DNA from: Ipomoea triloba
Taxonomy: Eukaryota > Streptophyta > Magnoliopsida > Solanales > Convolvulaceae
Direction: 5' to 3'
Assembly: GCF_003576645.1 (NCBI RefSeq)
Contig: NC_044924.1
Span: forward strand, 3,003,471 to 3,067,470
DNA: 64,000 nucleotides
Every line of letters starts with the position of its first letter. Positions within the stretch are counted from its first letter, which is position 1. This document shows, piece by piece, positions 1,204 to 64,000 of the stretch. The notes under the pieces are model-generated. The model saw only the letters and a program-made list of their open reading frames with translations, was not told the DNA's origin and did not search any database. The position numbers and the translations under genes were made by a program.

Positions 1204-4200
1204 TTAGATCAAATCAGAAATAGAGTCAGGTGGGGCAGAGTCCCAGTACATGGGTTCTTCCTGAGCAATAGCCAAAGTAGCTAGAATGTGAGCCCTGCGG
1301 TTATTAGCTCTAGGAGTTAAGAGAACTGAACAAATATTGAAAGATGACATAATCGCCTTAGAGGCATCTACTGAAAAACCAACATAAGAATAGAGACTCG
1401 TGTGAGATGACATTAGGAGATTCCTGAGTGTAGAGCAGTCGGTAAGAATGTGCACCGAGTCAATGTTACGATCCTTAAGCCATGATAGAACCTCTTTGCA
1501 GGCCAAAGCTTCCGCCATGAGTGGTGAGAAGCATGACGGGAGCCGGGCATTGAATGCGGCAATGAACTCGTCGTTGTGCGTCACCAACACCGCCCCTACT
1601 GCAGCCGATTTGGAGTGCGGATGGTAACTGGCGTCGAAGAAGCACCGAACGAGTCCTCCATCTGGTTGTATGGACGTTGCATGATGTTGCTGCTGCGATG
1701 ACACTCCCCCATGAATCTGACTCTGCTGCTGCTGTGACACTGCCGCGCCATGGACTTGCCGCCATGCGAGTGCCGCGGAGTGTGCCATCCGCCACACGGC
1801 AGCCGGTCGCGGAAGCTGCCGATCCCACACGGACGTATTCCGAGCCTTCCAAATATGATAGAGGACTGCTATAGCAACAAACATATCATCATCCGTTAGC
1901 ATTGTCATGGCATTTGTGAACCATTCAACAAAATCATCCCCTATCACACTAGATACATTCAAGGAGGACTCATGCCAAACTAGTTTGGTGTAATCACACA
2001 AGAGGAGTGAATGCATAATATTCTCATTGGAAAGACCACACATTGGGCATGTTGGATCCACTTCCACTCTCTTTAAAATCAAGTTAGTTGTGGTGGGAAG
2101 AACATTAGATAGAGCTCTCCATAGAAACATCTTCCATTTAGTAGGGCATTTAATTTTCCATAGCTGTAACCATTTAGCATAGGTACCTGGCTGCCACACA
2201 ACCTCCCCAATAATGCATCTATAGCCCTCTTTTACCGTATAACACCCTCTAGGGTCCCCGTACCAAAACCATGAATCTTCATAATGTAGATTAACCGGGA
2301 CCCTCCAGATGCGAGCAACATCTGATGTGGTAAAAATATCCTGTAAAATAGAGGGATCCCAGGTACCTGAGTTGGGGTCAATAAGGCCAGAAACCAAAGA
2401 ACCTTCGAGCTCCGCAGGCATGGGGGTCTGAATCAGAGGTCCAGACTCATCTGGCAGCCAGGGGTGGCCCCATATGAGAGTGGACGTTCCATCTCCAATT
2501 CTCCTCCTCACACCACTACAAACTAGCTCATGGGCAGCCATGATACTTCTCCAGCAGAAACTTGGGTTACTACCCAGAGAGGCATCAATAAACGAGGACT
2601 TGGGGAAATACCTGGCTTTATAAATTCTTGCCACCAGTGATTGAGGCCGGGTTAGGAATCTCCAGGCTTGTTTACCTAGCATAACCAGGTTGAAAGCTCT
2701 CAAATCCTTAAATCCCAAACCACCATACTTCTTGGGAATACACAAGCGATCCCAGGCCTTCCAATGAATACCTCTTTCACTCCCAGCACCCCACCAATCC
2801 TTCCAATGAATACCTCTTTCACTCCCAGCACCCCACCAATACCTGTTCATAACTCTTTCAATAGATAAACAGACCGAAGCAGGCAGCAGAAAAACACTCA
2901 TAGAAAATAAACAGACCGAAGCAGGCAGCAGAAAAACACTCATAGAAAATGTAGGCATTGACTGAGCAACACTCTTAAGGAGAACCTCTTTCCCTGCCTG
3001 CGAGATCAACCTTTTGCTCCATGAACCAATCCTCTGCTTGATCTTATCCTCAATGTATGAGAACACAGCCTTCTTTTATCTTCCAATAAAAGATGGGAGG
3101 CCCAGATATTTTCCAAAATTAGGAGCCTGAACTACCCCCAACACTGCAGCCACTTCAATCTTGACAACCTGTGGAGTGTTCCTACTAAAGCAAACACTTG
3201 ACTTATGAAAGTTGACAGCCTGCCCCGACATGTTTTCATACTCAATAAGACACTGCCTAACAGCCCCTGCCTCCTGTGCGTTAGCCTTAAAGAACAGAAG
3301 GCTATCATCTGCAAAAAATAAGTGTGAAATAGGCGGAGCACCCCTCGCAACTCTACACCCATGAAAATCGCCCCGTGCCTCAGCCTGTTGCAGCAGTAGT
3401 GAAAGGTCTTCAGCACAGATAATGAATAGATATGGGGAAAGAGGGTCTCCTTGCCTGATTCCTCGCGTAGGGTTTACCTGACCAACACTTCCACCATTCA
3501 CCAAGAAACTATATGAAACCGTAGTTACACACAACATGATCAAATCCACCCATTCAACAGCAAATCCCAGAGCCAGTAACATTCGGTGAATAAAAGACCA
3601 CTCCATTCAGTCATACGCCTTAGCCATGTCTAGCTTTAGCGCACCCCACCCGACCACACCACACTATTTCCTATTCAGATAATGACCCACCTCTGCAGCT
3701 ATGAGAATGTTGTCTGTAATAAGTCTATTGGGAATAAACGCACTCTGGGATGCAGATATGACTTCCCCCAGTAGAGGTTTCATTCTATTAGCAATCATCT
3801 TGGCCATGATCTTATAGACCACATTGCACAGGGCAATGGGCCGTAGATCAGAGACCATCTCTGGGCATTTCTTCTTCGGAATGAGAACCACATTAGTGTC
3901 ATTTAGGCCATCCGGAAAAGAGCGGGTATTCAGGCAGTTCAACACAAAAGTACAAACATCACTTCCCACCACATCCCAATAGTGCTGGTAAAACCCCGGG
4001 TTCATACCATCAGGCCCCGGAGCCTTATCAGGAAACATAGAGAACAGGGCACTCTTTACTTCCTCCATCACAAAGGGTTTAAGCAGGGTTTCATTCTGGG
4101 GTTGTGTGACACGTGGAGCAACAGATGTAATAAAAGAATCCACAGAAGATGCAGAGACATTTGATGCAAATATATCATGGAAATAATTAAGTACAATAGT

Positions 4201-5364
4201 ATTCAAATCACCATCTTCCACCCACACACCAGAACTATTCTTTAACCTAGTTAAAGTATTCTTCTTCTTATGGGCAGAGGCATACCTGTGAAAGAATTTA
4301 GTGTTTGCATCTGCTCCCTGCAACCAATGTTGCTTCGCCCTCTGTCTCCAGAATGCATCATCCTGACCCTCCAATTGGCATAGATCAGTTTCTATATGTT
4401 GATATCTGGCTAGAGAGGCCGGGTTCAACAGACCTTTCAAGCGCAATTGCTCACGTCGCAGGGTTTTGATCTTCTCACCAAATTTGTGAAAATGATCACC
4501 ACCCCAACTAAGCAATCTCTGACCGCAGTGTTGGAGACAGCCCAACAGACCTGCACTCCTCCCTTCCTGCCACGCATCCTCCACCTGTTCTCTGCAGCCC
4601 TCATCATGAATCCAAGCCATCTCAAACCGAAAACGTCTCCCCGCTTCACTAAGAACCCTCCCGCTTTCCTTAACTCCCAAATAGAGAGCCGTATGATCCG
4701 AATTGCGGGTGGGGATGTTAGTTACGGTAGCGGCGGGTAGGGAGCTACACCAGTCTGCACGAGCCAAGACCTTATCCAGCCTCTCCTCCATCCATTTCGT
4801 GGTACCCCTGCCCCTTTCCAAGGTAAACTGATAACCCTGCATAGGTATCTGTGCCAAACCACAATCATCTAAGGCTTCCCCAAACCCTCATAAAAGATTA
4901 TCAGGATGCGGAATCCCTCCCCGTTTCTCATGCTGGTAGAGGAGATCATTAAAATCGCCCAGCACTACCCAAGGGAGGGTAGACCTTCCTGCTAGAGCTC
5001 TCAGAAGATCCCAAGATGCACTCCTACGACCACGTTCTGGAAAGCCATAGAATCCTGTCATTCTCCATGCACCTAGCCCTGTCATACACACTTCAATGTC
5101 AACATGATTCTTCGAGAAGCTCAACAACCTAGCGGTGTTATTCCTCCTCCACAACAATGCCAAACCACCACTATGACCGACACTATCAACATAGAACAAG
5201 CCTTCAAAACCAAGCTTGACACAGAGCTTTTCAGCATACTCCCGGCCCACCTTGGTTTCCATGAGGAAGACAAACTCAGGCTTCTTACGGGGCACTAGGT
5301 CCACCACTTCACGAATTGTTCGTGGATTGCCCAAACCACGACAGTTCCAACTGAGAGTACTCAT
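1204..5364 (-). pseudogene. LINE ORF2: endonuclease / reverse transcriptase / RNase H-like polyprotein, four nonsense codons
   Basis: A 1387-codon single-frame reading region. From the N-terminus it shows an exo-endo-phosphatase endonuclease (MSTLSWNCRGLGNPR, METKVG, LGDFND), a reverse transcriptase (KAPGPDGM, a run of SQSAFIPNRLITDNI, LKLDMAKAYD, GDPLSPYLF, catalytic FADD), a zf-RVT region (CPMCG with downstream H and C), and a C-terminal RNase H-like domain with acidic residues in FFDAS, AEALA and LTDCS. In-frame stops are TGA at 4888-4890, TAG at 3664-3666, TGA at 3607-3609 (directly after the RT motif KAYD) and TAA at 3076-3078; there are no frameshifts. Its ATG overlaps the ORF1 stop (ATGA at 5361-5364). 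Two exact 42-bp in-frame tandem duplications lie in the 3' third. The copy should not make active protein; it could only be mobilised by an intact relative. Confidence 0.93.
2757..2948. repeat. Two neighbouring 42-bp in-frame tandem duplications inside LINE ORF2
   Basis: Unit A is 2757-2798, repeated exactly at 2799-2840. Unit B is 2865-2906, repeated exactly at 2907-2948. Each is 42 bp (14 codons), so the frame is kept: the protein repeats WWGAGSERGIHWK and SMSVFLLPASVCL. The two duplications are only 24 bp apart, with no sequence resemblance between A and B. Confidence 0.95.
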
Positions 5365-6425
5365 GATGAGGGGCGGGCCTGGGAACCAGAACCCGCCACA
5401 TGCAAGTTTTTTGAGACCTCGGTCATGACAACATCGGAACCTCCTCCTCCATTCCTCTTCACACCACTAGCCGAGCCTTCCCGCCGGCGTTTAGCTACCG
5501 CCATGACCGCCACCTCCGGCTCCAGCACGGCCTGCGATACTCGCTCAGCCGCCGTCGATCCCCGACCACCCAACCCCGGGTCTTGATTATCTTCCGAGCG
5601 AGGTGGCCCTCCGACCGGCACTAACCAATTGTCACCAACACCCCGAGGTCCACGACGCAAGCCCGCACGCAGCTCTGGTCCGAACGGGTATTGTTCGATT
5701 GGAACCACCGCTTCCCTAGCCTTCAAGCAAAAACGATGCACATGGCCTAGCATCCCGCAGAAGAAGCAAAAGTTGTGTAGTCGTTCGTATTTAAATGAAA
5801 CCCAACTCCACGTTTTGTCACGCTTCATCAGTTTCATGCGCCTCTTTAGCGGCTTGTTCACCGACATAGCCACCCGGATGCGATAGAAATCCAGCCACGG
5901 TGCTCCCAAGAAACGTTCATCATATTTAACGAAAGTCCCAAGGAAATTACCAATCTGTTCGAGGATTGTGTTCGACGTATAACCAATCGGTAAATCATGC
6001 AGCTACACCCACATGTCTACCGTGTCTAATGCGACATCCCCGAGTAAAACCCCGTCAACAACTGCTCGGCAGATCAACGTGCTGTTCTCAAATGCCCACG
6101 GCTCTTCGTCCAAAACATACCTCAAATCAGATTCGTGGAAGAAGACAAACATGAATAGGTTGGGTTGTAGTTCGGTTACTTGGACACCCTTCACTGGTTT
6201 CCATACCGAAGCTAGTACCTGCCGCATATACTCAAGCTTGACAAGTTTATCGGTCAAGAAACGTCCAACCATTGGCCATGTAGCGTAACCGCCATTAGCA
6301 GCGCCCGCGTCGTCCAAGCCCACCGGCTCGAAGGCCTCGTCTTCCTCATCAAGTGCCATGTCCGCCCATCGGGCAGTGAGGCCTGCAACTCCTTCGTGCG
6401 ACGCCATAGCAGCCATGCAACACAC
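5361..6425 (-). pseudogene. LINE ORF1: nucleic-acid-binding protein with DUF4283-like region and CCHC zinc knuckle, one nonsense codon
   Basis: A 355-codon single-frame region. The N-terminal half looks like the DUF4283 domain usual for plant LINE ORF1 (motifs GRFLTDK, FMFVFFHESDLRYVLDEEPW, and DMWV-stop-LHDLPIGY). The middle carries a CCHC knuckle (CFFCGMLGHVHRFC), followed by a basic, low-complexity tail. In LINEs this protein coats the RNA and escorts it to the target. One TAG at 6003-6005 interrupts the conserved W-V-x-LHDLP motif. The start could be the ATG at 6425 or one of the two ATGs within the next 20 codons (before AAMASH or ASHEGV). The stop overlaps the ORF2 start by ATGA. Confidence 0.9.
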
Positions 6426-6586
6426 AAACTTGTGACGAAAAACACCCCTGAGAAGACCAGGAGGAGAACACCGGACAAAACCGGAGAAAACGTAGGAAAT
6501 CGATCGGAAAACCTAGGAAACCTAAGGGAGGAGGCGAAACCCTAGACGAGATGCTAGAGATGAAATTATAACATAGTTGTAGTTTC

Positions 6587-30260: not shown

Positions 30261-30824
30261 CTACGCGCCGTTGCCGATAATTTCTGCCGGGGGCACAGTA
30301 CTACCGGCGTTGCTGTCTCCGGCGGAGGCGGCGGCGCCGCCAATGCCAGAATCAAGTCTAGTCCCAAATGGGCCTCCGGGACCTCCACCTATACCTCCAA
30401 ACGGCGATGAGCCTACCGGAAACCCTCCATAGCCAGACCCTATTCCGCTCCCACCTCCGGCATCGTAGCCAGACGCGCCACCGGGAAGCCCAAACCCAGG
30501 CCCACCGAAACCCGAGGACCCACCGCCAAACCCTCCGAAGCTAGACCCGAACCCACCCCCGGACCCGGAATCAAAACCCGATCCACCACCGCCGAGGTCC
30601 GGGGTCGGAAACCCCCCGCCGCCAAGAAAACCCGGCCCGCCGCCGAACCCTGCAGATCCTCCTCCGCCGCCGAAGTAGGGAGGAAACCCGTATTTGTAGT
30701 GGAAGAAAGTTTTCTGATCATCATCAACGCCTTTCTTCTCCAATTCCTCACTGCCCGGACTCGCATTTGCTGCACAAACAATCGCTCCGGCGAGGATTAA
30801 CAGCAGGAGAACTTTAGTCGCCAT
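30261..30824 (-). CDS. Secreted glycine-rich protein, copy 1 (GRP1)
   Basis: 187 residues, single exon. A signal peptide (MATKVLLLLILAGAIVCAANA, residues 1-21) is followed by an acidic/basic spacer with KTFFHYKYGFPPYF. A long domain of Gly-Gly-Gly/Gly-Phe-Gly repeats with Pro and Ser runs to about residue 160, then comes a short non-repetitive tail. This is the plan of glycine-rich cell-wall or extracellular proteins. The start is fixed by the signal peptide and by the identical context in the sister gene (GRP2), 2.7 kb to the right. A TATA box at 30893-30902 is 69 bp upstream. I cannot assign a precise function. Confidence 0.85.
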   Translation of the reverse strand: MATKVLLLLILAGAIVCAANASPGSEELEKKGVDDDQKTFFHYKYGFPPYFGGGGGSAGFGGGPGFLGGGGFPTPDLGGGGSGFDSGSGGGFGSSFGGFGGGSSGFGGPGFGLPGGASGYDAGGGSGIGSGYGGFPVGSSPFGGIGGGPGGPFGTRLDSGIGGAAASAGDSNAGSTVPPAEIIGNGA

Positions 30825-30892
30825 TTCCAGTGATTTCTTGAAATTGAAATGATTTTGGATGAGAATATTGCATCATTGCCTATTTCGCTCAT

Positions 30893-30902
30893 CTTTATAT
30901 AG
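30893..30902 (-). promoter_or_regulatory. TATA box of GRP1
   Basis: CTATATAAAG on the minus strand, 69 bp before the ATG. The same position and sequence context are kept in GRP2. Confidence 0.7.
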
Positions 30903-31916
30903 ATGAATTCCAAACTGTAAATCTGATAGAATTGAAGGTGAAAGTTAGGAACAACATAATTTAGAGATTCTTGCATTGCATGCATTATACTCCATCTTTA
31001 ACATTATGCAGATCAGATGCATGCCTAGCTATATTCAATCAAGAACTCCCAGCATCTCAACTTCATGACCAACCTAATTATGCATGCAATATAATTATTC
31101 CTCAACTAAGATGGGCTCCAATTCCATAGCTACAAATTACTATATATGTCACAGATTAATTACTCTCTCACATTTTAGGCCAACATGCATGATTTGTGTG
31201 AATGTTGTTAATTACAATAGGACTTTTAGAAACGGTTTTGTTTCATGTAATTTGTTTTCGTTATTTTTTTTTTTCCCCTTAGTTCTTTACTTTTCTTGTA
31301 TTGAAAAAAGTCCTTATTTCTTATAAGGTTATGTTTTCATGTATTACAGCTATATATAATATCACTTCGATAGTTGACAAAAAAAAACATTTCGATAATT
31401 TGACTTTACTAACAGTCACATGGTGTAAGGTTTTCCCATTAAGTCCTAAGGAGAATGATAGGTCTTTCAAGATTAGTTGTGTGCCATCCTTTAGTATCAT
31501 GCTATTCTCATTGCCAATTTGCTCAAAAAATAAATGTAAATCACACACCTCATTAATGAATTAAATGAGTAAATCCTACTAGGACGCGATAGTGGTCCAT
31601 GCAATGATCGATGGTGCCAGTGATTGTAGTGGTTGAGCTCGATCTATAGAACTTACGATGGCAATTCAAGGCTGGGTCCTCTAAGACCTTTTTTGACATT
31701 ATTTCTTTTTATAATCTTGAATTACTACTTAAAATGTTAAGAGATAAATTGAAGTTATTGTTAGTACACAATAGTGAGTTTGGTGCCGCATTTTCTTTTG
31801 CTCAACCATTTCTAATTTTGTCTCACCTTAGCTTGGTGATGGTTTTTTTTTTCTTTTTCTTTTTTCTCTCTCTCTCGTCCCTTAATAACAATGTTTAATT
31901 AGTTTGTTTTTATCTA

Positions 31917-32020
31917 TCAAAGACCTTGTGGTGTAGTGACATCCGGTTGCACCCCCATGTGGGAGGGAGTGGATGGGTTCTAACTTCAGTGGAGGCGTTA
32001 TTAGAAATTCTTTTTGAAAA
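31917..32020 (+). mobile_element. tRNA-derived SINE-like element, copy 2
   Basis: It begins CAAAGACCTTGTGGTGTAGTG, with an A-box-like TGGTGTAGTG. About 50 bases later comes a B-box-like GGGTTCTAACTTC (31976-31988), which is the spacing of a tRNA promoter. It has split two halves of a locally duplicated stretch. The family is not identified. Confidence 0.5.
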
Positions 32021-32279
32021 AACGAAATGTTGATCTTGTCCCTATTAAGTTCTAGCGAAGTAGTCCCAAAACCACCTTCTACCATTCTTATTGCAACCTT
32101 GAGTTAGTTACTACTTGAAAAGTTAAGAGATGAATTGAAGTTGCTATTAGTATATAATAGCAACAAGTTTGGTGCCACTTGTTCTTTTCATCATCAACAA
32201 ACAATTTTTATTTTTATCTCACCTTGATGATATGTGTACATTTTTTTCCCCTCTTTGAATGTTTGATTCAAAGTCAAAA

Positions 32280-32600
32280 ACTTTAATCCATTTACAAAAC
32301 CTTGTTTAATGTTTGACTTGATTGTTTGGTTCAATTAAGGAAACCTTAGATTATACATAAATGAGGAATACAATTGAGTGTTAGTTTAGGGTTTTACTTG
32401 AATGTACTTACCCGGCATAAAATGTACAACGTTAAGCCAACTTATGAGAAACATTCCAATGTAATTTTGAATTGAACTTAATTAATTCATGCATTAATCA
32501 TTTCTCAAGCACTAATTGTCTTAAAATTATAAATAAAGATCGAATAACTACACTACAAACACGAAAACAACTAGCTACTCATCACATATTTACCGGCTTT
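32280..32600 (-). repeat. Orphan copy of the GARP-gene 3' flank
   Basis: This stretch (ACCTTGTTTAATGTTTGACT, ATACATAAATGAGGAATACA, and a run ending in ACAAACACGAAAACAACTAG) matches sequence that lies just downstream of the stop codons of G1 (34620-34880), psi3 (44980-45200), G2 (47920-48110), G4 (55170-55390) and G5 (61640-61900). No GARP gene adjoins it here: the next gene upstream in that sense is GRP2. Confidence 0.65.
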
Positions 32601-32931
32601 GTTCGTTTGGCTTGCTTAGTTGAAAAGTTAATTAATTGAAATTAAAATGTTTGATAAAATTAATTGCTGAATTAGCTTATAATTAAGTGTCAAGAGACAT
32701 AAACTAAAATATTAAAATTTTAATTAGTGAAAGATAGATATATCATTTTTGTAATTAAATTAATAAAGCCAGTAACTTACTAACTCATTTTAAAACACTA
32801 CTTAAGGTAGCGTTACGAAATGAATTATTATTTCAGACTCCCTATATTTAACCACATGGAACGTAGCTAAGCCCCTAATGCAAGTTAATGATGAGTACAT
32901 AGTTGTGATGAAATCAGAAAAGATCAGATAG

Positions 32932-33498
32932 CTACACGCCGTCGCCGATCACTTCTGCGGGGTGCACACTGTTTCCGGCGGCGCCGCCGCCATGGCCAGC
33001 ATCAAGCCTAGTCCCAAATGGGCCAGCGGGGCCTCCACCTATAGCATCAAACGGCGATGATGAGCCTCCAAGAAACCCTCCATAGTTAGACCCCATTTCG
33101 GTCCCACCTACTCCGGCTTCGAACCCAGATGACCCGCCGGGAAAGCCTCCGCTGGCGGACCCGTACCCGGGTCCGCCAAACCCTCCGAAGCTAGACCTGA
33201 ACCCACCCCCGGATCCGGGTTCGAAACCCGATGAACCGCCGCCGATGTCTAGGGTAGGAAACCCGCCGTCGCCCAAACCGCCGCCGCCAAGACTACCTCC
33301 GGTGAAACCCGGCCCTCCGCCACCACCGCCTCCGCCTACACTCCCGAAGTAGGGGGGAAACCCGTATTTGAAGTGGAAGAAAGTTTTCTGTTCCTCATCA
33401 ATGCCTTTCTTCTCCATTAATCCCTCACTGCCCGGACTAGCATTTGCGGCACAAATTAGGGCTCCGGCGAGGATTAAAAGGAGAAGTTTAGTCGCCAT
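32932..33498 (-). CDS. Secreted glycine-rich protein, copy 2 (GRP2)
   Basis: 188 residues, single exon. It is the close paralogue of GRP1, with the same signal peptide (MATKLLLLILAGALICAANA), the same KTFFHFKYGFPPYF spacer, and a Gly/Phe/Pro/Ser repeat domain that has diverged by small in-frame gains and losses. An upstream in-frame ATG exists at 33645, but the signal peptide and the conserved GRP1 start support 33498. The TATA box is at 33567-33575. The pair arose by a tandem duplication that included the promoter. Confidence 0.85.
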   Translation of the reverse strand: MATKLLLLILAGALICAANASPGSEGLMEKKGIDEEQKTFFHFKYGFPPYFGSVGGGGGGGGPGFTGGSLGGGGLGDGGFPTLDIGGGSSGFEPGSGGGFRSSFGGFGGPGYGSASGGFPGGSSGFEAGVGGTEMGSNYGGFLGGSSSPFDAIGGGPAGPFGTRLDAGHGGGAAGNSVHPAEVIGDGV

Positions 33499-33566
33499 TT
33501 CCAGTGATTTCTTGAAATTGAAATGTTTTGGGATGAGGATATTGCATAATCGACTATTTCGCTGAT

Positions 33567-33575
33567 CTTTATATA
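33567..33575 (-). promoter_or_regulatory. TATA box of GRP2
   Basis: TATATAAAG on the minus strand, 69 bp above the start codon, matching the GRP1 promoter. Confidence 0.65.
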
Positions 33576-34948
33576 CATGAATTCCAAACTGTAAATCTGA
33601 TACATGAAGGTGAAAGTTAGGAACAGCATAATTTAATTCTTGCATGCATTAGACTCCATCTCTAATATTATGCAAATTCCCAACTATATTCAATCAAGAA
33701 CTCCCAGCATCTCAACTTCATGACCAACCTAATTATGATTATTCCTCAAGTAAGATGGGCTTCCATAGCTACAAATTATTGTATGTATATGTCACAGATT
33801 AATTACTCTATCTCTCACATTTTAGGCCAACATGCATGATTTGTGTGAATGTTGTTACAATATGACTTTTAGAAACGGTTTTGTTTCATTTGATTTGTTT
33901 TCTTTAATTTGTTGTCTTTTTATTTTTTTTCTTGTATTGAAAAAATGGTTTTATTTCTTATAAGGTTATGTTTTCTTGTACCTACCAGACGATGTATTAT
34001 ATCATGTAATTTGTTGTCTTCTTAGTTCTTTTCTTTTCTTGTATTGAAAAAAAAAAGGTTTTGCTTCTTATAAGGTTATGCTTTCTTGTACCTACTAGAC
34101 CATGATGTATTATAGCTAGCTCTAATATCACATTGATAGTTTAGTTTTATTGGCAGTAGTACATGCTTTCTTGTTCTCTTGCTTAACCATTTCAATTTTT
34201 ATCTAGCTATGGTGATGTGTGTTATTCTTTTTTTTTTTTTTTTCCTCTTAGTAATAATCCCCTTTTACTTAGTTTACTCTTATCGATCTTCATTTGTAAG
34301 ATTAGAATATATTTGAAATATTCTCTAAACTAGAATATGTATGTTAGGTATATTTTCTATTTTAGGGCACGTTTGGAAAGTAAAATATTGATCATCTCTA
34401 TTTTGTTCTAGTTGAGGAGTTCTAAAACCTTCTTCTACATTACTTATTGAAACCTTGAGTTACTACTTTGATGTTTATTTGTGTGCAAACTAATATATAA
34501 TTGGTTGGATTATTATGCTTTTGGGAAATCTTGTTAGACATATCAAGAATAACATCTTCTTTTCTTCAAATTATGAGGATCTTAGGGTGTTAAAACATTA
34601 TTTCAATTACGAAAATAAAACCTTGTTTAATGTTTTGACTTGATTGTCAGTTTCAATTAAGGAACCTTAGATTTGTGTATGTGTTAATTTTTGAATTTTA
34701 CTTTAACTTCATGTGCATAAATTGTGCAATTTTTGGACAACTTATGAACAATAACATTCCAATATAGTTTTCAAACTTAAATAATGCATTAATCATAACT
34801 TCTCAAACTCTAATTGTCTTTTAAATCACAAATACATATGGAAGAATTACACTGCAAACACAAAAATAGCTAGCTACATGCCTACATACATGCATACATA
34901 CAATTAATTAGGGCTAAATATATAGGCATTTCGCCTGGAACCATCAGA
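33576..34948. other. GRP2 upstream / G1 downstream region
   Basis: The part to about 34140 is the GRP promoter duplicate. 33950-34100 holds two short direct repeats with the phrase CTTATAAGGTTATG. The part at 34620-34880 is the conserved 3' flank of the GARP genes. No gene. Confidence 0.55.
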
Positions 34949-36234
34949 TCATCGACGGCTGGGAGGTCTGATGGAGAGCGTGAGATCAAGAGGGCCATCG
35001 TCTTGATCCTCATTCCTTGCAGCTGAGGAAGATGATCCTGGGTTTATATCACCAGACATCATCAATTCTGGTATCTCCTCAGCATCAATCTGTTCAAGAA
35101 ATATAAATCAAGCATGAATTAATCACGAATTATTCAAGAAAGTAAACAAAACAAAATTAGGGTTTTGGTCATTAAAATAGATTAATAGTGAATTTGTTGG
35201 AATTTACCGACACCGGTGTGCCCATCATCTTGAAGATGATGGTTTTGGGCGTCGGGGCCGAGTATTCCATCATCCTGTCTACCATTTAATCCGGTAAAAT
35301 GTCAGTAATGCTAAAAACAAACTGTAATTATTATATAAACACTCAAATTTTTAGAAATCATCGCAATTATATTACCTCATCGAGGGTGGAATGGTGGGGG
35401 GCATTATCGGCCCGAATGGGCTAATGTATAGCCTTGCAGGAGGGTGTAGTGGTGGTGACGTCAGCTGTGGCCGTAACGGTGAGTATAGCGCCGGCGCCGG
35501 AGCGCTATAGAGCGAGGGATAACCGTACGGATAGGGAACGGTGGCCGCCCACGTCAGCTGAGCAACTGCAGCTTGAGTTTCTTGAACAACAATTAAAGAA
35601 CAATATGTATATATTAGGTTTTTGTCAGAAGAAGTATCTTAAATTTTCTTAGCAAATCTAAACATTTTCTCCATGGAAGAAATGGAGATTTCGCCATGAA
35701 AGTAACATATATACCTCTAGCCAGTTGCTCCTGATCGAAACAGTTGGCACGGTGAATCTGATTGCAACAAATTCAACACATATAGTCCGGTAAGATTTTT
35801 TTTTTTTTTTGAAATGAAAAGAAATAATTTAAGGTTTGTTTCTGACCTCAAGGTGGCTCCTAACCCTACTTATGGTTAGGTCCTTATCATCCATGACTTC
35901 AACAATTGCTCTAGGAGTTGCATCTGCAATGATGAATAAAAAAAAAAGAAAAAAAATGATTAAAAGAAATTCAAATATTTTTTCCAAAATTGAATTAAAG
36001 GTGAAGGGAAATGGCTAATTACTACATACATTGCAGTCCTCCAAGAACTTGAATAGCCTCCAAGAAGCGACGATGAAGATCAGGAGTCCACTTGAACCGA
36101 GGTGTGGGCTGTGGATGAAACCCGGTTCCAGTAGGGTTTTCAGGAGCCGAGGAAGATTGGCCACCTTCAATGGAGGGAGGAACGGAAGGGAAAGGGGAAG
36201 AGAAAGAGGAGGAAGGAGAAAAGTTTTCAGCCAT
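34949..36234 (-). CDS. G1: GARP/G2-like MYB-related repressor with EAR motif, six exons
   Basis: Exons (minus strand, in order): 36030-36234, 35847-35923, 35715-35757, 35376-35580, 35208-35274 and 34949-35089; all junctions are GT/AG and in phase, 245 residues. Exon 1 starts MAEN, is Ser/Pro-rich, then begins the GARP domain (RFKWTPDLHRRFLEAIQVLGG, from residue 46). Exon 2 continues with ATPRAIVEVM...SRVRSHLE and exon 3 opens with IHRA, so the usual SHLQMYR end of the domain is altered. Exon 4 ends in the family motif, here RLYISPFGPIMPPTIPPSMR. The C-terminus carries LDLTLSI (EAR core 233-237), a binding site for TOPLESS-type corepressors. Predicted nuclear transcriptional repressor. Closest relative in the window is G2. 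A TATA-like element is at 36360-36368. Confidence 0.85.
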
Positions 36235-44480: not shown

Positions 44481-44829
44481 TAAATAAAATAATTAATACA
44501 TTATTAGAATTAACAATTGAGTCTAGCTAGAGTAGTTCGAACGGGTTAGTGGACTGGCCTTGTCAATAAACTCCAAGTCCAAGCCACTAAATAAAATAAA
44601 ATAGCAAGGTGTATGTAGAAATATATATTCCGAAAACGCTAAAAGGTCAATTGTTATACCATAAATCAGAGTTCATATTGTATTATTGTGAATTCTGATA
44701 TAAAATATTTGTACCTTTAATTAACATATTCTGTACCTACAACTGTCCGCTGCAGGTACAAAATGTGCCAACTACAGATACAAATTTTGAATGTTATTTT
44801 TGGATCAGATCTAGAAAAAGGAAGGTTTC

Positions 44830-44925
44830 CTAGCTGAAGAAGAGGCTAGGGGAGAAGGCTAGGCTTCCATGAATTGAAGCCGCAGGATTCAAGGTAGAAG
44901 AGGAAGGAAGAAGGCTTTCACCCAT
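44830..44925 (-). pseudogene. GARP-family exon-1 N-terminal fragment
   Basis: A 31-codon frame starting MGESLLPSSSTLNPAASIHG, then stop. The Ser-rich STLNPxxSIHGSL phrase is the same repeat found five times in G5. The GARP domain is absent; the sequence downstream, after the stop, joins the 3' flank of the family directly. Confidence 0.6.
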
Positions 44926-45297: not shown

Positions 45298-46247
45298 TTA
45301 GACATGAGGCCTGGAACTGCTAGGATTCTCATTGATAGGCGGTTTGATTGTGAGAGTGAGATCAACTTTAGGTCTCTTTGCTGCACGGCCACCAAGCATC
45401 AACTCCAGTCTCACATTCTCTTCTTCATCATCAACCTCATCATCAATAGCAACAACATCGATCTGCTAAAGAATAGAATCCGGGCATTATTAATTAATTC
45501 AATAATGAATTGAAGTAAACAAAATAATTTGGTTCTTGAAATAGTTTCAACAATAAATTGGTATTATTTACCGGCTTCTGTCTGCACTCTTGAAACAACG
45601 TAACTCCTCAAACAATATGGTCTGTTGCCGTGATGCTGAAAAATTCATTATGCTATAAATATAATCCACCATTTATTCCGGTCAAATGTCAGTAATGCTA
45701 AAAACGTGATTATTGTATAAGCACTTGAGAAAAAAATTAAAAGTTATCCTAGCTAATAACCTCATCGAAGGGGGTATGCTAGGGAGCATCGGCCTCATTG
45801 GATCAATGTACAATCTGGGAGGACCCGGCAGTGGCCATGACGGTGAATTTAGTGGTGGAGCGGTGTAGAACTGATGGCCGTAACGATAGTGAACCGGGGC
45901 CGACCAACCGGTGTAATTTTGCCCACTAAAATTATTTGAGTGAAATAGGCCGGGTTCCAGCAAAATTATTTGTATGATTATTTCCGAATGAAGGCATCAT
46001 GGAGATCATCTGTCCTGTGGATAAAGAATTCTGGTAATTAGCAAAAGGCCACTACCCTAACCGGCTGTGTTCCAGGCTTGAAGATTGACCAACTTCTAAA
46101 GAAGGGAGATGGGTTCCACGAATTGAAGTTGAGGGATTCAAGTGAGAATAAGGACGAAGAGGGTTTTCAGCCATGGATGCTACTCTCAAGGTAGCAGAGG
46201 AGGGACGAAGCTAGCTGCAGGTTTGTGTCTGATGCTTGCTTACTCAT
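45298..46247 (-). pseudogene. psi3: GARP-less, frameshifted G4/G5-type pseudogene
   Basis: The family start MSKQ (46247) runs out of frame; an internal ATG at 46174 opens MAENPLRPYSHLNPSTSI, then stops before any GARP domain. Where the domain should be, the sequence passes into exon-4 sequence (GWSAPVHYRYGHQFYTAPPL, then RLYIDPMRPMLPSIPPSMR to 45761). The exon-5 equivalent, 45572-45652, is 81 nt instead of 76 because of a 5-bp insertion. Exon 6 (45298-45462) remains open and ends with RLELMLGG and VDLTLTIKPP. So the gene has lost exons 2 and 3 and the GARP half of exon 1, gained an early stop, and is frameshifted in exon 5. It is the G4-type partner of G1. Confidence 0.75.
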
Positions 46248-55482: not shown

Positions 55483-56694
55483 TCACACATTAGGCCTGGA
55501 ACTGTCATGACCCTCATTGACAGGCGGTTCAAGTGTGAGAGTGAGATCGATCTTAGGTTTTTTTGTTGCACTGTCACCAAGCATTAGCTCCAATCTCACA
55601 TTCTCATCACCAACCTCATCATCAACACCAACAATCTGCTAAAGATAGAATGCGGGCATTATTAATCAATTCAATGAATTATTGTAGTAAACAAAATAAT
55701 GTGGTTCTTGGAATAGTTTCAACATAAATTCATTGTTATTTACCGGCCTCTTTCTGCACTCTTGAAATACCCCCTCGAACAATATGGTCTCTTGCTGTGT
55801 TGTTGAAAAACCCATCATCCTATAAATCCACCATTTATTCCGGTCAAATGTCAATAATACTAAAAATGTTGTTATATATTGTATTAGCACTTGAGAAAAA
55901 GACTAAAAAAATCCTAACTAATAATAACCTCATCATAGGAGGTATGCTAGGAGGCATCGGCCCCACTGGATCAATGTACAATCTGGGAGGACTCGGCTGT
56001 GGCCAAGCTTGTTGGTAGTGAATGGGGACCGACCAACCGTAACCACCATTACCTGTCAAACCCATCTGTGCAGCTGCAGTTGCAACTATAGCTTCAGCTT
56101 CTTGAGAAGAATTAAAGTGGAAGAAATAATGTTTTTTTTTTTTTTTAATGTATGAAATGGAGATTCCGCCATGGAAGAATATATATACCTCTGGTTGCCT
56201 GTTGTTGAGCAAAGCAAAAACTCCTGTACATCTGAGTACAACAAATTCATTAGTCTCATAAAAAAAAAAATTATTCATGTATGTATGTTGTGTTTAAAGG
56301 GCGAAATTTGTTTAATTTCTTTCTGACCTGCAAGTGACTACCCACTTGACTTAAGGTTAGATCTTTTTCTTTCATTAGATCCATAATGGCTTTTGGAGTT
56401 GCACCTGCATGCAATGATGAATCAATATATAATACATAAAATAATCAAACCAAATAACTTAAGAATGATTTATATATAATAAAATAAAGTAAATTATTAT
56501 ATATGTGATTGGAATTGATCGAATTCATTACTTTGCTCTCCTCCAAGGAATTCAACAGCATTCAAGAAACGGCGGTGTAGATCAGGGGTCCACTTGATGA
56601 CCCGGGAAGAAGAAGAAGAAGAAAGAAGAGGGTTTTCACCCATGGAGGAGGGACGAAGCTGCTGGTTTCTTTCTGGTGATGATTGCTTACTCAT
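55483..56694 (-). CDS. G4: GARP/G2-like MYB-related repressor with canonical SHLQMYR and two EAR-type motifs, six exons
   Basis: Exons (minus strand): 56532-56694, 56328-56404, 56189-56231, 55929-56100, 55744-55819 and 55483-55635; in phase, 227 residues. It starts MSKQSSPERNQQ. The GARP domain (33-83) reads VIKWTPDLHRRFLNAVEFLG ... ATPKAIMDLM ... SQVGSHLQ|MYRS, with the normal SHLQMYR end that G1 and G2 have lost. Exon 4 has an Ala-rich start and ends RLYIDPVGPMPPSIPPMMR. The C-terminal exon has two LxLxL sequences: LELML (192-196) and LTLTL within DLTLTLEPP (208-212). This is the best candidate for a functional DNA-binding repressor in the cluster. A start at the second Met (MGENPLL, residue 18) is also possible. 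Confidence 0.85.
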
Positions 56695-61987: not shown

Positions 61988-62825
61988 TCAAGCGGACCTA
62001 GAACGGTCAGGACTCTCATCCGTAGGTGGTTTGAGTGTGAGAGTGAGATCAATCTTAGGTCTCTTTGGCACACGGGCACCAGGCATAAGCTCCAGTGTCA
62101 CATTATCTTCTTCTTCATCATCAAGATCACCAACACCATCATGAACCTGCTAAAGAATGCATTATATATTAACTAATTCAATGAATTGAAGTTAACCAAA
62201 TAATAATTTAATTTGATTCTTCCAATAGTTTTAACAATAGATTGGCTATTATTTACCGGCATCTGTCTGCATCCTTGAAACAACTCCTCAAACAGCAAGG
62301 TTTCTTGCCGTGGAGCCGGGAACCTCATCATCCTGTCCACCATTTATTCAATGTCAGTACAATAATGCTCAAAACTGTGATTACTAATTGTATAAACACT
62401 AAAAGACTAAAAATTATGCTAATATATAACCTCATCGAGGGCGGTATGCTAGGGGGCATCGGCCCAACTGGATCAATGAACAATCTGGTAGAAGAAGAGG
62501 GGAGTAGGCTTCGATGACTTGAAGCCCTAGGGTTCATGGTAGAAGAAGAGGAAAAAAGGCCTCCAAGAGTTGAAGGTGAAGGATTCAAAGTAGAGGAAGA
62601 GGAGGGAAGAAAAAGGCTCTCATGCATTATAGATGCGGCAGGATTAGTAGCAGAAGAGGAGGGAGCAAAGCTTCCATGAATTGAAGGTGGATGCAAGGTA
62701 GAAGAATGAACGGAAGAAGGGTTTAAGGTGGAAGAAGAAGAAGATGAAGAAGGAGGAAGAAGAGGGTTTTGACCCATGGAGGAGGGAAGCTGCTGGTTTT
62801 TTTCTGATGATGATTGCTTACTCAT
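61988..62825 (-). CDS. G5: GARP-less family member retaining the conserved motif and EAR domain, three exons
   Basis: Exons (minus strand): 62431-62825, 62257-62332 and 61988-62146; junctions are GT/AG and in phase, 209 residues. It starts MSKQSSSEKNQQLPSSMGQN, as in G4. Instead of the GARP domain there are about five degenerate Ser-rich repeats (STLNPxxSxHxSL, residues 30-112), which run straight into RLFIDPVGPMPPSIPPSMR (exon-4 end, 114-132). Exon 5 (FPAPRQETLLFEELFQ) and exon 6 follow as in G4, with LTLTL at 191-195. The second half of exon 1, exons 2-3 and most of exon 4 have been removed in one fusion that preserved frame and splice phase. Predicted product: a nuclear or cytoplasmic EAR protein with no DNA-binding domain. 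It might interfere with its relatives or act as an adaptor; it could also be a recent pseudogene that happens to be open. Confidence 0.7.
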
Positions 62826-62921
62826 TGTAATTAGGAGCAGAGCTACAAATTAAACAACAATGGAGGTCGGAGAGGGGAGCAGTGAGGTGAGGAAGAAGAA
62901 AGCTCACAACAATTGCAGACC

Positions 62922-62930
62922 TTAAATAGG
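62922..62930 (-). promoter_or_regulatory. Conserved TATA-like element of G5
   Basis: CCTATTTAA on the minus strand, 97 bp above the ATG, inside the promoter block shared with psi3 and G4. Confidence 0.5.
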
Positions 62931-63636
62931 GGAAAAACCACTCCAAGCTACTGGCAATTGTCCTCCATGCAGGTTGCCAATTGCCACCTAGCTTGGAGCT
63001 CCATTTGTCACACAACATCGCCTTTGAATTCTCCTATAAACTCCAAAGCATCTCACCGGTAAAGCTTCCATGGTTTTCCTCAACACAACTAACAGGGAAT
63101 CTGGCAATTGCATTGTCATCAAAAACATTCCGCCACGTTCTAACACAAATGATAACAGATAATGCCGTGCTTGCATGTGTTTAGTTTGTTGAGTCTGTTT
63201 GGAATTTGTTGTTGTGTTTACCTTGGAGTTTAGTAGGTGTTTAGCTTCACCTTTGTAGTAAATACTTTCATGGTGTAATGTAAATTCATCTATTCTTCAC
63301 TCCTCTACAACAAATTCACCTCCTCAAACACTTCCTTCTTTGTTAAGTGTCAATGTTAGTACCATGATATTTTTCTCCACTCCATTTTAAGGCTGCAGGA
63401 TTGGAAGTTACATTCACCATTTTTCTTATAATATATAAGAATTTTTTAAAAATCATCTAAATTTATACACCTTAAATAAATGGTCCTCTTTGATATCAAT
63501 AGTCAAGATTCATATTAAGTGGTACCATTACACAAAAAGCTATAACTAGCTAGTATCATAGGCGTAACTATACTTCCTTAATTTAAATCATGATAGGTAT
63601 TTAATAGAACTATATATGGACTTGACCCTTCGCTCA

Positions 63637-63691
<55 letters not shown>

Positions 63692-63910
63692 ACTTGACCC
63701 TTGAGACCTTCCCTTAACATGGATTACCAATCTTATGGGGCGTTTGGTTGGAGAGAATTACCATTTCATTCCCACTTATAGCTAATTTCCACATATATAA
63801 TTCCGAAGGCAAGCAAATTCTTTCGTTTAATTTGGTTGGAAGGAATTGCAATTCTGCAGAATTAAAATTCCTTCATTTTCATGGAATTAGAATCCAATGC
63901 CCCTCCTCCT
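62931..63910. other. G5 upstream region and right end of window
   Basis: 62931-63000 is promoter sequence shared with G4 and psi3. 63340-63690 matches the upstream flank of psi3 (46630-46940). A (TA)n tract runs 63640-63689. From about 63738 the sequence GGGGCGTTTGGTTGGAGAGA resembles the terminus of a small DNA transposon, cut by the end of the window. No gene. Confidence 0.5.
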
Positions 63911-63946
63911 CCCTCCCCCCCCCTCCCCCCCCCCCCCCCCCCCCCC

Positions 63947-64000
<54 letters not shown>
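63911..64000. repeat. Poly-C tract at window end
   Basis: Almost pure C with a few T and one A. Like the tracts beside the gap at 43141, it may border an unsequenced stretch. Confidence 0.9.

Follow-up and report, generated by a model that had tools for sequence, protein, structure and literature searches.

The gene G5, which lies in a 64,000-nt stretch of DNA (the window; C9:3003471-3067470) from a morning-glory relative of sweet potato, is an in-frame fusion in which Ser-rich repeats link the beginning of exon 1 to the end of exon 4; the reading frame, the splice sites and a promoter of the type found in its neighbour G4 remain. We give about an even chance to the view that this paralogue, one of a birth-and-death cluster of GARP/EAR genes in Ipomoea, lost a domain and persists as a nearly neutral relic that is still open. 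The closest proteins in the databases come from Ipomoea batatas, I. trifida and I. nil. The parts of G5 are as follows.

62431..62825, minus strand: fused exon 1/exon 4, 395 nt; codons 1-29 common to G4, codons 30-113 Ser-rich, codons 114-132 the exon-4 motif RLFIDPVGPMPPSIPPSMR, with the last codon split by the intron
62487..62738, minus strand: Ser-rich stretch standing in for the GARP domain, built of 51-nt tandem units (TRF, and self-match against codon shuffles)
62257..62332, minus strand: exon 5, 76 nt, residues the same in I. batatas gene model P0001
61988..62146, minus strand: exon 6, 159 nt including the stop codon, with acidic stretch and EAR motif
62033..62047, minus strand: LTLTL (LxLxL, EAR-type), residues 191-195
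62826..63123, minus strand: promoter/5' leader block, common to G4 (82%) and weaker in G46
62922..62928, minus strand: TATA-like TATTTAA, roughly 100 nt before the ATG, present also in G4, G46 and the orphan block La

The coding sequence on the minus strand runs from an ATG at 62825 to a stop codon ending at 61988 and comprises 630 nt (395 + 76 + 159) for 209 residues, with phases 0/2/0 and GT..AG at both introns; a second AG 3 bases upstream of the exon-6 acceptor (CAG) makes a form with one extra Q possible. Three pieces of G4 have no counterpart in G5: the GARP half of exon 1, all of exons 2 and 3, and the 5' portion of exon 4. What remains is 92% identical to G4 over the first 87 aligned coding nucleotides, 88% in the exon-4 tail, 72% in exon 5 and 75% in exon 6, and the two introns are 62% and 74% identical. 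The coordinates, the in-frame fusion and the 630-nt count given in a preliminary description of this DNA proved exact, and its picture of a GARP-less gene that kept EAR motif, promoter and splice signals agrees with our exon models and with the comparison to G4. With its GARP exons missing from the model, G5 lacks the Myb/GARP DNA-binding domain (PF00249) of a GARP transcription factor, and Pfam assigned the 210-residue form with the extra Q to no family at E <= 1. Nor does it carry the disabling mutation of an unprocessed pseudogene; start, frame, splice sites and stop are intact.

The preliminary description was right that the GARP exons are gone, but it had not noticed that the gap is filled: exon 1 of G5 holds 84 Ser-rich codons missing from G4, which rules out a plain deletion. 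A 51-nt unit was found by TRF in this stretch (2.3 copies, score 124, at 62486-62603), and the best internal self-match scored 31.8, whereas none of 200 codon-shuffled controls exceeded 16.8, so that the repeats cannot be ascribed to chance. Related units occur in the copy at C13:6.989 Mb described below and in a stranded fragment elsewhere in the window.

44827..44925, minus strand: exon-1 fragment MGESLLPSSSTLNPAASIHGS..., kin to the G5 repeat unit, stopping after 31 codons

Because of these related units, the N-terminal part of older exon 1 sequences is the probable source of the G5 repeat. The GARP domain would have been taken out by recombination between the Ser/Pro-rich low-complexity stretches of exons 1 and 4, which, in a cluster gaining and losing copies, is the most likely cause of its loss. 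In the GARP-less copy on C3, exon 1 and exon 4 are joined directly, and the triplet TCA stands at the junction in both parent-like sequences. After the loss, G5 would have been under little constraint, and its product, if made, would be a largely disordered protein of 209 residues, carrying a C-terminal LxLxL and lacking any known DNA-binding part.

G5 is not the only copy of its kind. Its gene DNA had at least 13 matches in the 462-Mb genome of 17 contigs, the self-match, several pieces per copy and small matches on C8 or without an assigned locus included. At C13:6.989 Mb lies a copy that is 88% identical including the introns and has the same GARP-less fusion; it is devoid of the promoter and of about the first 17 codons, and carries 2-nt and 1-nt frame changes in exon 1. 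In a second copy (C3:31093671-31094001; 31.094 Mb), a start of the type seen in the neighbouring gene G49, MAENSFPSSSFSSASAS, is joined in frame to the exon-4 tail, and the copy is broken at the start of exon 6, ahead of the EAR motif. A third lies within the window.

45298..46174, minus strand: G46, a separate GARP-less copy and pseudogene, exon 5 frameshifted by five extra bases

G46 retains more of exon 4 than G5, and its exon 1 and exon 4 are in frame only with splice sites chosen to fit. A short GARP-less fragment is present at C13:3.09 Mb, and a copy at C9:12.48 Mb has kept pieces of the GARP domain, its exon 6 carrying some 300 inserted nucleotides. Among the five GARP-less copies examined, G5 alone is open through to the EAR motif; G46, the C3 copy and both C13 copies are broken, which favours a relic. 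These copies exclude G5 as the sole GARP-less member. The G49-type start of the C3 copy, the longer exon 4 of G46 and the repeats of G5 rule out a common origin of the three losses, and with their different junctions the GARP domain seems to have disappeared on three occasions or more. At its 5' edge, the copy at C13:6.989 Mb has a stretch of some 39 nt (L018 ~4187-4226) that recurs, inverted, near two orphan promoter blocks beyond the window (L014 ~5330-5362 and ~6112-6142) and may mark the source of that copy.

Three GARP-bearing paralogues with open frames share the window with G5, which is located upstream of G4 on the same strand.

55483..56694, minus strand: G4, six-exon GARP and EAR paralogue, coding sequence 684 nt, 227 residues
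48227..49557, minus strand: G49, six-exon GARP paralogue, coding sequence 717 nt
34949..36234, minus strand: G36, six-exon GARP paralogue, coding sequence 738 nt

Pfam recognised the Myb/GARP domain in G4 (26.7 bits) and G49 (26.1 bits; cut-off 24.4) and assigned no family to G36 at E <= 0.01; the domain of G4 matches the rice PHR2 chain 7d3y (E 6.9e-16). In the recognition helix, 22 of 26 outside GARP proteins read KSHL, the three neighbours GSHL (G4), TNHF (G49) and RSHL (G36), and G49 and G36 depart from 4 and 2, respectively, of the 20 best-conserved GARP columns. Between G36 and G49, dN is higher in the GARP domain (0.217) than after exon 3 (0.131). Taken together this is at most a hint that reliance on DNA binding may be weakening in the cluster; the idea of a general decay of the GARP domain fits only in part, as G4 agrees with all 20 columns. 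The I. trifida protein P0003 is not identical to G4. Stray fragments resembling GARP exon 1 are found between the genes on the minus strand (39031-38936, 38656-38576, 53843-53781, 53525-53463 and 61261-61211), and the database models P0006, P0007 and P0011 take in pieces similar to them. Direct-repeat arrays also lie between the GARP genes, at 57.5-59.4 kb and 50.2-52.3 kb with a spacing of about 500 nt and at 40.1-41.8 kb with one of about 262 nt. Elsewhere on the minus strand of the window, two adjoining glycine-rich proteins with similar starts, apparently duplicates, occupy 30261-33648, and long frames at 1204-6512 resemble a non-LTR retrotransposon.

The GARP-less state is old. G5 and the copy at C13:6.989 Mb (hereafter the C13 copy) differ with a dS of 0.139; in the two introns and the 3' flank the differences number 5/97, 11/110 and 8/88. 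At 7e-9 substitutions per site per year, a rate given in PMC6214957, they would have separated very roughly 6-10 million years ago and thus before I. trifida and I. triloba, whose split the same paper places at 2.2 million years. The I. batatas gene model P0001 carries the G5 fusion as well, without the 5' end and exon 6 of G5. The preliminary description had proposed looking for the frame in other accessions, and P0001 does keep it over G5 residues 48-157, where 2 of 110 residues differ (T60S and I66M); the other two mismatches of the 112 aligned residues fall where P0001 is spliced into a G4-type exon 3. AlphaFold gave P0001 no confident fold (pLDDT 46, pTM 0.15), which is in line with a relic.

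For the selection analysis, changes on the G5 and C13 branches were polarised with G4, G46, the C3 copy and C9b, and three ambiguous changes were omitted. On the G5 branch, coding sequence has changed as fast as non-coding sequence (15/302 in exons 4-6 versus 13/287; C13 branch 6 and 8; Fisher P 0.74), as a relic would. In total, 28 changes fall on the G5 branch and 14 on that of the dead C13 copy (P 0.044). Exon 5 holds 8 of the coding changes (8/76 versus 13/287 non-coding, P 0.056). Two of them, S137P and E152G, alter residues invariant in all five other copies compared, and S139P and K156M alter residues that are the same in four of the five, which again favours a relic; the position of R135 is variable, and G36 and G49 share the P at 139. 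With equal coding and non-coding rates and an N:S count of 10:5 in exons 4-6, strong purifying selection on G5 is unsupported. The dN/dS check suggested in the preliminary description gives a divided answer: the G5 branch stands at roughly 0.6 (about 218 N and 64 S sites), on too few changes to be told from 1, whereas G5 against the dead C13 copy yields 0.50 (bootstrap 0.28-0.96, 188 codons; exon 6 alone 0.84), which counts against a relic.

Other observations point in the same direction as the latter value. From the exon-4 motif to the end, dN/dS between G4 and G5 is 0.39 (0.22-0.68), a figure that takes in the G4 branch and the time before the loss and that is similar to the 0.46 between G36 and G49. 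The two changes in 110 residues relative to I. batatas compare with 7.6 expected at a Ks of 0.031 (P 0.018; P 0.27 at half that divergence), on the assumption that the window is I. triloba and that I. batatas groups with I. trifida, and a gene model such as P0001 is likelier to exist where the frame is open. The GARP-bearing neighbours show 25/597 changes relative to I. batatas (G36 11/245, G49 9/221, G4 5/131; counted without gaps, without the 9 unrelated residues that open the G4 alignment and without the comparison of G4 with P0002), which does not differ from G5 (Fisher P 0.41). Finally, under neutrality an intact frame had a probability of 0.03-0.15 across the six rate settings tried, a range calculated for one copy on its own, whereas G5 is the best among about five.

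Up to the ATG, the promoter block is identical between G4 and G5 at 224 of 274 positions, and its 50 differences are fewer than the 64/202 of the introns (P 0.0008), which taken alone speaks against a relic. Synonymous change is likewise low in the first 29 codons (2.0/20.5) compared with the region from the exon-4 motif to the end (24.8/62.0; Fisher test on rounded counts, P 0.014). This suggests that the 5' end of the two genes has recently been shared by gene conversion, and a replacement of the G5 5' end by G4-type sequence is a reading we place only slightly short of even, compatible with a relic and with a working gene alike. The C13 sister, which has no G5 5' end, is consistent with it; on the other hand the sites are few, a constrained leader would look alike, and a leader deletion relative to G46 that is common to G4 and G5 can mean common descent. 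On this reading, the shared promoter and start would say little on continuous selection on G5. In view of the low synonymous change at the 5' end of the coding sequence, the kept block (82%) is weaker evidence of function than the preliminary description took it to be. Two orphan copies of the block lie on C9 beyond the window end (L014:5010-5235, 90% identical to G4, and L014:5936-6107, 82%), and no gene body was found beside either. Upstream of the G5 promoter region a poly-C run (window 63900-64000 and L014:1-1086) leads into an assembly gap, in which further copies could be hidden.

A close, though somewhat less probable, alternative to the relic is that G5 encodes an EAR-only regulator, expressed from the G4-type promoter, which would bind TOPLESS-type corepressors through its putative interaction motif LTLTL without binding DNA, and would either compete with G4 for these corepressors or bring them to a partner of the exon-4/exon-5 motifs. 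The EAR motif is defined by LxLxL, a pattern present in the IDLTLTL of G5 (residues 189-195) and, among the copies compared, only in G4 and G5. At the same position the C13 copy, C9b and G46 have LxLxI, as do G36 and G49, and the C3 copy has FxLxI, G46 and the C3 copy being out of frame there. Promoter and first 29 codons are kept, the frame is intact with few residue changes relative to I. batatas, and the exon-4 motif is well conserved between G4 and G5 (dN 0.066; dN/dS 0.16, interval 0-0.92). A precedent would be miP1a/b, which link CONSTANS and TOPLESS according to PMC4807768, where LxLxL is named as a TOPLESS-binding motif. Against such a regulator stand the equal rates of coding and non-coding change on the G5 branch, the exon 5 changes at otherwise conserved residues, and the lack of a known dimerisation domain in G4, G49 and G36 and of a confident fold in P0001. 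The competitor or adaptor microprotein envisaged in the preliminary description has the canonical LxLxL as the only basis for its TOPLESS half, but no recognised interaction domain goes with it. Its proposal that G5 dimerises with its relatives finds no anatomical support, because Pfam detected neither a coiled coil (MYB-CC) nor another dimerisation domain in G4, G49 and G36.

A broader version, which we consider unlikely, would have Ipomoea GARP/EAR genes repeatedly shedding the DNA-binding domain in frame (G5, the C3 copy and, by splicing, G46) while keeping the exon-4 motif and exon 5, with G5 as the surviving functional EAR-only protein, which would regulate how much TOPLESS-type corepressor reaches its GARP-bearing neighbours. 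It is improbable that the G5 exons form the front of a longer transcription unit running into G4 and encoding a chimeric protein like P0001: this model does connect G5 sequence, namely exon 5 and a piece of exon 1, with G4-type exons 3-6, and G5 does lie upstream of G4 on the same strand, but P0001 starts ahead of the conserved TATA-like box and leaves out exon 6 of G5 as well as exons 1-2 of G4, as a prediction artefact would, and each gene has an element of its own, a stop in G5 and a promoter block in G4. The N-termini of P0001 and P0003 (MLCDKW/MLSEKW-type) are probable annotation artefacts, since they match window frames upstream of the TATA-like box.

If G5 is the nearly neutral relic that we favour and does not work, it is a caution: in a tandem cluster, a truncated copy may have an intact frame, intact splicing and a shared promoter without deserving the label microprotein. 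If it does work, it would be a natural case of a repressor family making a DNA-free version of itself by low-complexity exon recombination, in a crop relative. The GARP-bearing gene, the GARP-less gene and dead copies are all at hand for comparison.

Among the listed titles and opening lines of abstracts on GARP, Ipomoea, EAR, microproteins/TOPLESS and GOLDEN2-LIKE, we found no account of this cluster. The nearest matches outside Ipomoea are Myb/GARP proteins (P0012-P0020), some labelled KAN2 isoform X2, PHL11 or putative Myb family. Compared with GARP transcription factors, G4 has the same C-terminal layout as G5, which differs in having no GARP domain, and the MYB-CC coiled coil is absent from all three GARP copies scanned. 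According to PMC6003976, a trans-microProtein has a gene of its own that is related, through domain loss, to a larger multi-domain gene. The paralogy to G4 and the dispersed copies place G5 there, but its product is no small single-domain protein (209 residues versus 227 in G4, with no recognised domain); it shows no known interaction domain and keeps the conserved exon-4/5 motifs, and P0001 gave no confident fold. Like miP1a and miP1b, G5 is a domain-loss relative of larger genes with a possible TOPLESS-binding motif; those proteins, however, keep the B-Box that binds CONSTANS (PMC4807768), whereas G5 has no interaction domain that is recognised and falls only a little short of G4 in length. 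The OsPEL microProteins of rice are presented as dominant-negative in PMC12696372, which also holds the terms GARP and GOLDEN2-LIKE; G5 is related by descent to the GARP genes next to it, as their paralogue.
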